A DNA stretch of 33,918 nucleotides from Desulfitobacteriaceae bacterium. Its GTDB lineage: Bacteria > Bacillota > Desulfitobacteriia > Desulfitobacteriales > Desulfitobacteriaceae. Positions 14,465 to 19,631 of this stretch are shown here, piece by piece (the stretch's first letter is position 1; the number at the start of each line of letters is the position of its first letter). The position numbers and the translations under genes were made by a program. The stretch is from the NCBI GenBank assembly GCA_028704155.1, contig JAQVLN010000010.1, positions 1 to 33,918 of the forward strand, written 5' to 3'. The notes beneath the pieces were generated by a model. It was not told the DNA's origin. It did no database searches and worked only from the letters and a program-made list of their open reading frames with translations.

Positions 14465-15058
14465 ATGCTTATCAGAAAGGCCGAGTATGTGGCTTCGGCG
14501 GTTAATCCGGCCCAGTATCCGGTTGAAAACATTCCGGAGATAGCTCTAGCCGGCCGTTCAAACGTGGGCAAATCTTCATTGATTAACCGTTTTTTGGGCC
14601 GCAGAAATTTGGCAAGGACCGGAGGAACTCCCGGAAAGACCCAAACTTTAAACTTTTACCGGATTAATGAAGAATGGTTTTTCGTTGATTTACCTGGTTA
14701 TGGTTATGCCAAAGTAGCAAAAGAGATCAAAGCCCGTTGGGGAAAAATGATGGCTGAATATTTTGGCCGCAGGAAAAACCTGCTGGCAGTCATCCAAATT
14801 GTGGATCTTCGTCATGAACCAAGTCAGGAAGACCGGGAGATGCAAAGCTGGTTGCGTCATCAGGAAATTCCAACTTTAATTGTAGCAACTAAAGTTGATA
14901 AAGTAGCCCGGGGAAAGTGGCCCAAAAATTTGAAAATTATTGCTCAAAGCCTGAATATTGATGATTGGCAGTTGATCCTGCCTTTTTCTGCTGAAACCGG
15001 GATTGGCAATGCTGAACTGCATGAGGCTATGGAGCAAATACTGGGCTGGCCTGAATGA
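14465..15058 (+). CDS. engB: Ribosome-biogenesis GTPase EngB/YsxC
   Basis: TrmE-Era-EngA-EngB-type GTPase needed for late assembly of the 50S subunit. The G1 loop GRSNVGKSS is at residues 30-38, a GGTPGKTQT switch I follows, G3 is DLPGYGYA, and G4 is ATKVDK. The length of 197 residues is typical. The ATG at 14465 follows a GAGGGGGG SD. The gene order lonA-engB is the standard Firmicute one. Its stop codon is 9 bases from the stop of the convergent LysM gene, with no obvious bidirectional terminator between them. Confidence 0.96.
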   Translation: MLIRKAEYVASAVNPAQYPVENIPEIALAGRSNVGKSSLINRFLGRRNLARTGGTPGKTQTLNFYRINEEWFFVDLPGYGYAKVAKEIKARWGKMMAEYFGRRKNLLAVIQIVDLRHEPSQEDREMQSWLRHQEIPTLIVATKVDKVARGKWPKNLKIIAQSLNIDDWQLILPFSAETGIGNAELHEAMEQILGWPE

Positions 15059-15067
15059 TTTTTCTGC

Positions 15068-15772
15068 TTACCCTCTTCGGTCGGTTACTTCCTCAGGACA
15101 GGGTTCTTGGGGAACAGGTACTTCAGGCTTCAGGCAATCAGGACAAAATTGATTCTTTGCTTCGCTGAAACATTGACAATGTCTTTCCTCCTCTGCAGCC
15201 ATTTGCATCAAGATCTGCTGGATCTCCGGAATCGGAATTTTGTGGGCCAGCTCAAGATAATGCTGGTGGGCGCCGGCTTCATCTTTAATATTCATATCTA
15301 AGATGGAACAGATATCGGCAGCATAATTAAGATAGGAGGCTCTCCAGTCGACCCAGTGTCCGTTGTCAAATGCTTGATAACGGGGGTCAAAGCCAAGATG
15401 GCGCAAGGCTTTTCCCAACTGATCAAGATGATTCATTTCATCATAGATAATTGGACGTAATAAGGCATCAAATTCCGGGTTGTCGAGAATTACAGCCTGA
15501 TAGAGGTAAGTGGTAATGGCACTTAATTCAGAGTCCTTACCGGCATAAGCTTCATATAGCCACATTGCATAAGTATAATCGGGCTCAGTAATCTCGGCTG
15601 GGATCAATTCATCGCATTCGGCAATGGGGAGCAGAAGCAATTGGCCGGGATAGATTCGGTCAGGGTTTTTAATATTATTTAGTTTAATTATATCGGTCAT
15701 TTCTACCTTAAAATTCCCGGCGATTTTATAAATGCTGTCACCTTGCTGGACAATATAGCGCTTATAATCCAT
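15068..15772 (-). CDS. LysM domain fused to a ferritin-like di-metal domain, Cys-rich tail
   Basis: The N-terminal LysM domain (residues about 5-49: YIVQQGDSIYKIA through YPGQLLLLP) binds GlcNAc polymers such as peptidoglycan. A ferritin-like four-helix domain follows (about 66-205). Its spacing gives a clear di-metal site: E82, then E112-x2-H115, then E165, then E195-x2-H198, with 30 residues between each Glu and the following ExxH. After the last ligand comes HCQC (C199, C201), CPDC (C210, C213) and a Pro/Glu-rich end with one more Cys. There is no signal peptide. SD GGAGGG precedes the ATG. LysM proteins without signals in spore formers are often spore coat or cortex proteins (SafA, SpoVID), and the locus position matches that of B. 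subtilis spoVID, upstream of valS. A spore-coat redox, peroxide or metal role is inference. The gene opposes its neighbours in direction. Confidence 0.85.
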   Translation of the reverse strand: MDYKRYIVQQGDSIYKIAGNFKVEMTDIIKLNNIKNPDRIYPGQLLLLPIAECDELIPAEITEPDYTYAMWLYEAYAGKDSELSAITTYLYQAVILDNPEFDALLRPIIYDEMNHLDQLGKALRHLGFDPRYQAFDNGHWVDWRASYLNYAADICSILDMNIKDEAGAHQHYLELAHKIPIPEIQQILMQMAAEEERHCQCFSEAKNQFCPDCLKPEVPVPQEPCPEEVTDRRG

Positions 15773-15784
15773 TTGAATCCCTCC

Positions 15785-15800: not shown

Positions 15801-15950
15801 TAATTTTATTCAGGGAGTATGAACTATGCTGATGATTTATTGAGGTAATAAATTCCATATTGGCGAAGGGTTTTCCCAAAGACCAGACATTAAATGGACA
15901 GGTCAAGCGTAAGTATGTAGTAAAAATTCAGAAGTCACGGAGGAGAAACA

Positions 15951-16535
15951 ATGGGCAGAGCAGTTCTTCAGGGAATCTGTACAGCACTTTTGGTTACTGT
16001 TTTAACTTTAATAGCCGGAATTATTTGGACATCCAGCGGTATAGGGATAGTAAGTATTTCCCGGATTGTTGATATTGGTTTGCTGGCCAGTTGTCTCATG
16101 GGAGGCTTTCGTACAGGCCGGCAAACTAACCTCTGGTTTACAGGAACTCTTGTCGGGATTGGTTATGTGATAATCGGGAGTATGTTGTTGGCTTTGTTTA
16201 CACCCCTTCGTGGAACCGGTTTTTTGCAGGTTTTGCTGACAGGTGCTTTGTTGGGTTCTGTTGCGGGGGCCTTTGGAACCAGAACCACTTATCAGAAAGC
16301 AAAGCGCAGTTTTGTAACCAAAAAGCCCTACTACCGGAATTCCCCTTATGCTGATTGTCCTGATGATGCTGATAGGCGAATCAATTATGGGGTTGGTCCG
16401 ATGATTAAAGAACAAGAGGATAAGTTGTTCAGTGAAGAATTATTATTTTTTGAGGATCAAACCGGAGATAAGAAGCCTGGTGGCGGGCGAATGTCTCCCT
16501 GGTGGGAAGAAGAATGTACAACACATAATGGCTGA
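15951..16535 (+). CDS. TIGR04086/YrzE-type membrane protein with a charged C-terminal extension
   Basis: Residues 1 to about 115 contain four hydrophobic helices with short loops and Gly-rich packing (GIGYVIIGSMLLALF, LLTGALLGSVAGAFG), the pattern of the TIGR04086 family (B. subtilis YrzE), whose function is unknown. The last 80 residues are hydrophilic and acidic (KEQEDKLFSEELLFFEDQ) and end in WWEEECTTHNG, longer than the usual family member. The ATG at 15951 has GGAGGAG upstream. It lies between the divergent LysM gene and the promoter of valS, so it is probably transcribed alone. No terminator was recognised after it. Family assignment is from the overall pattern. Confidence 0.7.
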   Translation: MGRAVLQGICTALLVTVLTLIAGIIWTSSGIGIVSISRIVDIGLLASCLMGGFRTGRQTNLWFTGTLVGIGYVIIGSMLLALFTPLRGTGFLQVLLTGALLGSVAGAFGTRTTYQKAKRSFVTKKPYYRNSPYADCPDDADRRINYGVGPMIKEQEDKLFSEELLFFEDQTGDKKPGGGRMSPWWEEECTTHNG

Positions 16536-16979: not shown

Positions 16980-19631
16980 ATGCAGGGGGAAAAGGTTCGA
17001 ATATCATCAGTTTATGATTCAAGTCAAGTAGAAAGTAAATGGTATCAGTATTGGGAAAACAAGGGTTTTTTCCGGGCGGAGCTGACCGGGAAGAAACCCG
17101 CATTTTCGATAGTAATGCCACCACCAAATGTCACCGGCCAGCTGCATTTAGGCCATGCTATGGACTGTACATTACAGGATATCCTGACAAGGTTTAAACG
17201 TATGCAAGGCTATGATACACTTTGGCTGCCCGGAACCGATCATGCCGGAATTGCCACCCAGGCTAAAGTAGAAGAACAATTAACTACAGAAGGGCAAAGC
17301 AGAGAGCAAATGGGCCGGGAAAGGTTTTTGAAACGGGTTTGGGATTGGAAGGAACAATACGGTGGACAAATTACCCGGCAATTACGGCGGTTAGGAGCCT
17401 CCTGTGATTGGTCCAGAGAGCGTTTTACAATGGATGAAGGCTGTTCTGAGGCTGTGAGGGAGGTATTTGTTGAATTATATAATAAAGGCCTTATTTACCG
17501 GGGGAATTATATTATTAACTGGTGTCCTAAATGCCAGACTACGATTTCGGATGTTGAGGTTGAGCATCTGGACCGCGAGGGACATCTCTGGCATTTGCGC
17601 TATCCGGTAAAAGACAGTGAAGAATTTGTTATTGTGGCCACAACCCGCCCGGAAACTATGCTGGGTGATACTGCTGTTGCCGTTCACCCGGAGGACGAAC
17701 GTTATAAAGATATGATAGGCAAAACCCTGATCCTTCCCCTGGTTAATAAAGAGATCCCCTTAATTGCTGACGAATATGTTGAACTGGGGTTCGGGACCGG
17801 AGCGGTAAAAATTACGCCGGCACATGATCCTAATGATTTTGAAATCGGAAGGCGTCACAACCTGGAACAGGTTGCTGTGCTGGATAAAGAGGCAAAAATG
17901 AATGAAGCTACCGGCAAGTATAAGGGGATGGACCGTTATGCAGCCCGTGAAATGATTGTCCGGGATTTGGCTGAGCTGGGAGTCTTAGTCAGGATAGAGG
18001 AACATCCGCATGCTGTAGGAGAATGCTATCGTTGTTCGACTGCAATTGAGCCTTTGGTTAGCAGACAATGGTTTGTTAAAATGGAACCTCTGGCCCAACC
18101 TGCCCTGGAAGTAGTACGGGAGGGTAAACTGCAATTCGTGCCTGAGCGCTTCAGCAAGATTTACCTGAGTTGGCTGGAGAATATTAGAGACTGGTGTATT
18201 TCAAGGCAATTGTGGTGGGGCCACCGGATACCGGTTTGGTATTGTCAGGATTGTGATACCGAGGTTTGCTCCAAACAAGATCCTTCCACTTGTACAAACT
18301 GTGGTTCCGATCATTTGGTTCAGGATCCTGATGTTTTGGATACCTGGTTTTCTTCAGGATTGTGGCCGTTTTCGACTTTAGGCTGGCCGAAGAAAACAGC
18401 TGAACTGGAAAAGTTCTATCCAACCTCAGTTTTAGTTACCGGCAGGGATATTATCTTTTTCTGGGTAGCCCGCATGATATTCATGAGTTTGGAGTTCCAG
18501 AAAGAGGTTCCTTTCCGTCAGGTAATGATTCACGGTTTGGTATTGGATGCCCAGGGCCGCAAGATGAGCAAATCTTTGGGCAATGGAGTAGACCCTATCG
18601 AGATTATTGAGGAATATGGCGCCGATACCCTGAGGTTCATGATGATTACCGGAAATACTCCTGGTAATGACTTGCGCTTCCATGTAGAAAAATTGGAGGC
18701 CACGCGGAACTTTGCCAATAAGATCTGGAATGCTTCACGATTTGTACTATTAAACCTTAAGGACTATCAAAAAGATCAAAGAGGTGAGTTGGCCTTAGCG
18801 GACCGGTGGATACTTTCCCGCTATACTGCACTTGTTGAAAGTGTGACAGATTGTCTGGAACATTATGATCTGGGAGAGGCCGGACGTTTGCTTTACGAAT
18901 TCATCTGGAATGAATTCTGTGACTGGTATATTGAGCTGTGCAAACCCCGGCTTTATGATAAAGTTGATCTCAATGCCAGACGGACCGCCCAGTCGGTTAT
19001 CCTGGAGGTTTTAGATGGCACAATGCGGCTCTTACATCCCTTTATGCCTTTCCTGACAGAAGAAATTTGGCAAAACCTCCCCTTGCAAGGTGAAAGTATT
19101 ATGCTTCAGGAATGGCCTGAAGTCAAGGGTGACTTGCGTGATTCGGCTGCAGAAAAAGCTATGAATTTGCACATGAATATTATTAAGGCAATTCGTAATA
19201 TCCGGGCAGAAATGAATGTAGCTCCAGGGAAAAAGGCAGAGATTATTTTATTTGCTCCAGACAATCGTATCAATTTAAGATTAAACACCGGAGTTGAGGC
19301 GATTAAACGTCTTGCCGGTGGATCTGCAGTGACTATTTTAACTGAAATGCCTTCCAAACCGTCTAAAGCTGCCGGTGCTGTCCTGGATGGAGTAGAAATT
19401 TATTTGCCTTTAAAGGGATTGCTTGATTTGGATAAAGAAATTACCCGGGTTGAGAAAGAACTGGCCCAGGTGCGCAAGGATCATAAAATGTTTGAAGGAA
19501 AACTAAGTAATTCCGGGTTTATAGCTAAGGCTCCTGCCGAAGTAGTTAACAAAGAAAGGGAGAAATTAGAAGCAGCTAAAGCCAGGCAACAAGTATTGCA
19601 AGCCCGCTTGCTTGAATTGACTCAGGAGTAG
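16980..19631 (+). CDS. valS: Valyl-tRNA synthetase
   Basis: Class I aminoacyl-tRNA synthetase charging tRNA-Val, with editing of mischarged threonine. The HIGH-class motif is HLGH at residues 56-59 (PPNVTGQLHLGHA) and KMSKS is at 528-532. The editing (CP1) domain includes TTRPETMLGDTAVAVHP. Cys-rich pairs CPKC, CYRC and a CQDC/CTNC cluster sit in the insert region, as in many bacterial ValRS. The end (about 815-883) is a Lys/Glu-rich coiled coil, the tRNA-binding arm. The length of 883 residues is normal. The ATG at 16980 follows GGAAGGAG. It is expressed from the T-box leader and probably cotranscribed with folC, which begins 49 bases later. Confidence 0.97.
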   Translation: MQGEKVRISSVYDSSQVESKWYQYWENKGFFRAELTGKKPAFSIVMPPPNVTGQLHLGHAMDCTLQDILTRFKRMQGYDTLWLPGTDHAGIATQAKVEEQLTTEGQSREQMGRERFLKRVWDWKEQYGGQITRQLRRLGASCDWSRERFTMDEGCSEAVREVFVELYNKGLIYRGNYIINWCPKCQTTISDVEVEHLDREGHLWHLRYPVKDSEEFVIVATTRPETMLGDTAVAVHPEDERYKDMIGKTLILPLVNKEIPLIADEYVELGFGTGAVKITPAHDPNDFEIGRRHNLEQVAVLDKEAKMNEATGKYKGMDRYAAREMIVRDLAELGVLVRIEEHPHAVGECYRCSTAIEPLVSRQWFVKMEPLAQPALEVVREGKLQFVPERFSKIYLSWLENIRDWCISRQLWWGHRIPVWYCQDCDTEVCSKQDPSTCTNCGSDHLVQDPDVLDTWFSSGLWPFSTLGWPKKTAELEKFYPTSVLVTGRDIIFFWVARMIFMSLEFQKEVPFRQVMIHGLVLDAQGRKMSKSLGNGVDPIEIIEEYGADTLRFMMITGNTPGNDLRFHVEKLEATRNFANKIWNASRFVLLNLKDYQKDQRGELALADRWILSRYTALVESVTDCLEHYDLGEAGRLLYEFIWNEFCDWYIELCKPRLYDKVDLNARRTAQSVILEVLDGTMRLLHPFMPFLTEEIWQNLPLQGESIMLQEWPEVKGDLRDSAAEKAMNLHMNIIKAIRNIRAEMNVAPGKKAEIILFAPDNRINLRLNTGVEAIKRLAGGSAVTILTEMPSKPSKAAGAVLDGVEIYLPLKGLLDLDKEITRVEKELAQVRKDHKMFEGKLSNSGFIAKAPAEVVNKEREKLEAAKARQQVLQARLLELTQE

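Follow-up and report, generated by a model that had tools for sequence, protein, structure and literature searches.

Spore-coat catalases are known, and what fixes them to a given layer of the spore is poorly understood in anaerobes, which to our knowledge are without most of the Bacillus coat proteins. The coat morphogenetic proteins SafA and SpoVID reach the interface between cortex and inner coat via LysM domains and coat partners, and they have no known secretion signal (PMC6282716). In C. difficile, CotCB and CotD are putative coat Mn catalases, with catalase activity reported for CotD (PMC9542656), and CotJC of Moorella has been found in spores (PMC8745062).

We describe here a gene located in a 33,918-nucleotide stretch of DNA, referred to as the window, from a Desulfitobacteriaceae bacterium, an anaerobic spore former, whose product carries a LysM domain and a Mn-catalase-like domain. 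No description of this fusion was found in the literature searched, and the protein apparently consists of known parts in a new and undescribed arrangement. When the LysM targeting precedent of SafA and SpoVID is combined with that of the coat Mn catalases, a self-anchoring spore catalase is the simplest account. We estimate a probability of about 0.55 that the protein is a peroxide-degrading Mn enzyme, made by the mother cell and held by its LysM domain at the cortex/coat interface; a role of some kind in sporulation is considered highly probable.

The gene, its locus and the LysM domain

The gene occupies positions 15068-15772 on the minus strand and encodes a protein of 234 amino acids. ATG is the start codon of the ORF, and a ribosome-binding site (GGAGGG, 15779-15784, minus strand) can be read 6 nt upstream of it; together with the Pfam matches given below, these features indicate that the LysM plus ferritin-like protein noticed in an earlier note on this DNA is real. 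The neighborhood is compact. The gene lies, as had been stated, between engB (14465-15058) and valS (16980-19631), and this interval holds one further gene, a divergent partner on the plus strand (15951-16535) coding for a TIGR04086-like membrane protein (29.5 bits, just under the cut-off of 30), which is recognised also by synteny and joint loss. Reading of the 234-residue sequence revealed neither a hydrophobic N-terminal segment nor a signal peptide, in agreement with the first reading.

The LysM domain spans residues 6-49 (15626-15757, minus strand), with a Pfam E-value of 4e-14, over the cut-off, and it is closest to the SafA-type LysM of spore proteins. Its best NCBIfam domain was TIGR02899 (spore_safA), with 5.5e-10 and 39 bits, below the cut-off of 67.85; in the related two-domain proteins tested, the LysM domain also fitted the SafA-type model best, with up to 66 bits. 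The secondary structure predicted by AlphaFold2 for this part was beta-alpha-alpha-beta. At a separate locus (L004:1495-1974), a small Gly/Pro/Cys-rich protein carries a SafA-type LysM at its C-terminus and is likely a coat protein.

The earlier note had connected the gene with spoVID, which in B. subtilis presumably also lies in the engB-valS interval. This resemblance turned out to be one of position, with no support for homology beyond the LysM domain. The SpoVID model TIGR02907 matched only the LysM stretch (profile positions 300-344; 25 bits against a cut-off of 170), leaving the remainder of SpoVID unmatched, and in relatives an ion-exchanger gene separates engB from the orthologue, to which Desulfosporosinus-type genomes add an EamA-type transporter gene. 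For these two reasons SpoVID orthology was rejected, and the position of the gene is probably coincidental. The window protein shares with SafA, SpoVID and SipL the SafA sub-type of LysM and the lack of a signal peptide but, unlike them, carries an enzyme-like domain. An alternative reading is that of a structural or morphogenetic coat protein, with a role similar to that of SpoVID or SipL and an enzyme fold serving only as scaffold. A LysM domain without signal peptide, as in SpoVID and SafA (PMC6282716), the Pro/Cys-rich tail and the placement shared with spoVID would agree with it; however, the LysM domain is N-terminal and is all that TIGR02907 matches, the metal ligands are all invariant across a large divergence, and the gene has been lost from a genome that keeps SpoIVA (G010, see below). 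We regard this alternative as quite unlikely.

Mn-catalase-like domain and C-terminal tail

Residues 60-212 (15137-15595, minus strand) form a ferritin-fold, Mn-catalase-like domain, defined by Pfam, by matches to KatB and by its ligands. Mn_catalase PF05067 was matched with 7e-11 and 42 bits (gathering score of 27) in two stretches, the best of them at residues 59-125. The PF05067 family and the association with spores are shared with the spore-coat Mn catalases CotJC, CotCB and CotD. The source genome also encodes a CotJC-like protein at another locus (L005), which differs from the window protein in having no LysM domain and is only about 22% identical to it. The NCBIfam equivalog for manganese catalase, NF052557, gave 19 bits against a cut-off of 350, so the protein is not an orthologue of that group. 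By sequence, the closest solved protein is KatB, a Mn catalase of Anabaena (4r42), with E=1e-12 for the single sequence and 3e-18 for the family profile, bacterioferritin chains being also among the profile matches. KatB (Alr3090, PDB 4r42/6j42) is a short manganese catalase whose fold and ligand positions align with those of the window protein, but it has neither a LysM domain nor a Pro/Cys tail, and it is about 28% identical to the window protein, known here from sequence and model.

The AlphaFold2 model consists of a LysM domain and a helical bundle (mean pLDDT of 79.9), with high confidence in most helices and low confidence in residues 52-58, the loop 136-146 and the tail. The helices of the bundle comprise residues 82-96, 99-125, 154-178, and 182-209. 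In Foldseek searches, KatB ranked first, followed by other Mn catalases and many bacterioferritins, with a TM to KatB of no more than about 0.55 for the entire chain. Structure prediction had been named beforehand as a refuting test; it returned a helical bundle closest to a Mn catalase, an outcome that speaks for the note.

The predicted ligands E82, E112, H115, E165, E195, and H198, whose numbering in the earlier note was exact, align with the KatB positions and make up a complete di-metal carboxylate set. According to the KatB alignment and the model, they follow the E / ExxH / E / ExxH pattern of Mn catalases on a four-helix bundle, and the alignment suggests that all six converge into one site. 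They were invariant in 31/31 aligned sequences, that is, 28 orthologue rows (the window protein included) and three LysM-less relatives of about 35% identity, a constancy greater than chance would give, and they are kept as well in two-domain paralogues of 32-34% identity. Y89 (E82+7) is invariant too. Mn catalases and bacterioferritins alike have their second-shell Tyr at this position, so that the residue does not discriminate between these types. The sequence dictates neither the metal nor the chemistry, given that Mn catalases, rubrerythrins and bacterioferritins have the ligand set in common. Of the earlier proposal of a ferritin-like oxidase, peroxidase or metal store, the di-metal site was supported, and the fold could be narrowed from generic ferritin to Mn-catalase/CotJC-like, which favors peroxide chemistry over metal storage.

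The main rival of the Mn catalase reading is a diiron peroxidase or oxidase of the rubrerythrin/bacterioferritin type on the spore surface, one that would work with Fe plus a reductant, or with O2, and in which invariant Cys residues might take part. Rubrerythrin PF02915 is over its Pfam cut-off (2e-11), with a score as good as that of Mn_catalase, the ExxH pairs represent the diiron pattern, bacterioferritins recur in the profile and Foldseek matches, and C155 and C210 are conserved in 28/28 orthologue rows. On the other hand, the top matches in both sequence and structure are Mn catalases, and there is neither a rubredoxin domain nor a conserved CxxC pair, with C213 present in 15/28 rows. 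A diiron enzyme is thus a possible but rather unlikely reading. The more specific identification as a rubrerythrin was discarded: PF02915 passes, but there is no rubredoxin-like Cys4 domain, and C199, C201 and C213 are not conserved.

It was also considered that the protein could store Mn or Fe, or handle metal in another way on the spore, without catalysis. The ferritin fold seen in the model and in the Foldseek matches would be compatible with this, and Mn is known to accumulate in spores, but KatB and the other Mn catalases, its nearest relatives, do not form storage cages, the catalytic-type site is invariant, and an encapsulin shell gene (PF04454) was absent from all 46 genomes searched, including that of the window. 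Such a store is therefore judged improbable. The lack of a shell gene also led us to reject an encapsulin cargo identity; encapsulin-associated ferritin-like proteins (EncB NF058679, TIGR04535) show a weak likeness in the di-metal helices, far below the cut-off.

The earlier note had pointed to a CxC (C199/C201) and a CPDC (C210/C213) as a potential second metal or redox centre. This was abandoned because few orthologues have the first pair (C199 in 3/28 rows and C201 in 6/28), and the proposed centre, as read from the alignment, is a local feature. The variable, Pro/Cys-rich tail (residues 210-234; 15071-15145, minus strand) starts at the invariant C210 and ends in a Gly found in 28/28 orthologue rows, mostly as GG[KRA]G behind a Pro-rich stretch. 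It is probably a conserved docking or cross-linking extension.

Distribution in the source family and link to sporulation

Orthologues were searched for in 81 genomes, 46 of which belong to the family of the window genome. They were present, with 55-69% identity, in 40 of these 46, among them Desulfosporosinus spp., Paradesulfitobacterium, Acididesulfobacillus, and Peptococcaceae CEB3, and outside the family only relatives of about 35% identity were obtained. SpoIVA was present in 45/46 genomes of the family. The divergent TIGR04086-like membrane gene adjoins the orthologue in nearly every locus of the family that could be checked. The absence of the orthologue in G018, G031, and G033 is attributable to an unassembled region, since engB is missing too, and a transposase interrupts the locus in G038. 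G010 represents a true loss of the gene, yet SpoIVA, SpoIIIAA, and DpaA are all kept, which indicates that the gene is dispensable for sporulation.

In G001, the sister species and sole congener sampled, lon-engB-valS-folC are contiguous, and both the LysM plus Mn-catalase-like gene and its divergent partner are missing. This genome (L085) has no SpoIVA, no SpoIIIAA, and no full DpaA match, keeps two copies of spo0A and, judging by its gene content, has apparently lost sporulation. The joint loss constitutes a natural experiment which ties the gene pair to sporulation, as one event in one 92% complete MAG. The link to sporulation that the earlier note had put forward was supported, both by this co-loss and by the survey proposed there of spore formers against non-spore formers, in which homologues were found in genomes carrying sporulation genes. 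Given that the distribution tracks sporulation, the protein is probably an enzyme attached to the spore that destroys peroxide or handles metal. The membrane gene at 15951-16535, lost with the sporulation genes in G001, is itself a candidate sporulation gene.

Footprint alignment of 33 orthologous upstream regions revealed a −10-like element, GAATATA[GT]T, which 30 of them share and which in most cases lies some 30 nt ahead of the start. The element of the window, GAATAAAAT (15803-15811, minus strand), is a variant that departs from this consensus of the source family. Similar −10 regions were found in the family for spoIVA (AATATACT) and dpaA (CATATACTG), and control of the gene by a mother-cell sigma factor (sigE or sigK) is plausible. 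In addition, a candidate SpoIIID site, ATGGACAGGT (15894-15903, plus strand), fits WWRRACARNY, which we assume to be the SpoIIID consensus. Its core GGACA occurs in 28/33 orthologous regions, and the site is kept as tentative because the full consensus holds in only 15/33.

Two-domain relatives and proposed role

A wider survey covered 398 genomes of the phylum, 6 from the source family and 392 others. A two-domain match was obtained in 6/6 members of the source family and, counting matches that span both domains among those listed, in at least 6 of the 392 other genomes, and LysM-less relatives were common. SpoIIIAA was present in all six outside genomes with the two-domain architecture and in four further genomes checked. 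In another family, a LysM plus Mn-catalase-like gene (L159:1492-2951) is convergent with sigK, which was identified with 316 bits, over the cut-off. A further gene of this type (L158) lies near a SASP-like ORF, a rubrerythrin, and a flavodiiron protein, these neighbors having been named by eye. The protein might also be a vegetative stress protein of the cytoplasm or the wall with no tie to sporulation, as the lack of a signal peptide would permit. This is very improbable in view of the SafA-type LysM, the loss of the gene together with sporulation genes, and the sigK and SASP-like neighbors in other families.

Under the preferred reading of a self-anchoring catalase, the protein would be made in the mother cell during sporulation, and its SafA-type LysM would keep it on the surface of the forming spore by attaching to the cortex peptidoglycan or to precursors of it, or else to coat partners that bind LysM. 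There, the di-metal site, presumably occupied by Mn rather than Fe, would break down H2O2 as CotJC-type coat catalases do, and the Pro/Cys tail, which always ends in Gly, probably serves to dock or cross-link the protein. As one protein would combine its own SafA-type anchor with a catalytic core, the question of what fixes a coat enzyme to its layer would become directly testable in Desulfosporosinus-type spores. Moreover, the gene would serve as an easily recognised sporulation marker for uncultured genomes of the source family.

The tree places the window family together with the f2 proteins, apart from the paralogues, and its branches are long. Four changes are needed to account for the history of the LysM fusion, of which just one is required by branches with good support, and long branches come together in the tree. 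We also advance, as a doubtful possibility, that anaerobic spore formers have a recurrent class of di-metal enzymes anchored at the cortex/coat, in which LysM domains would have become fused, perhaps repeatedly, to Mn-catalase-like cores, and whose peroxide chemistry would regulate coat cross-linking rather than only detoxify. If true, peroxide chemistry would be placed exactly at the site of coat cross-linking and cortex maturation.

Finally, paralogues with a LysM and a Mn-catalase-like domain were observed in frame with an upstream 2Fe-2S subunit of the xanthine-dehydrogenase type, with no stop between them, at L003:931-2160 (in the window's own genome, C115), L080:1368-2642, and L082. This arrangement recurs in three genera, and an internal ATG preceded by GGAGGG suggests a separate start for the in-frame paralogue.
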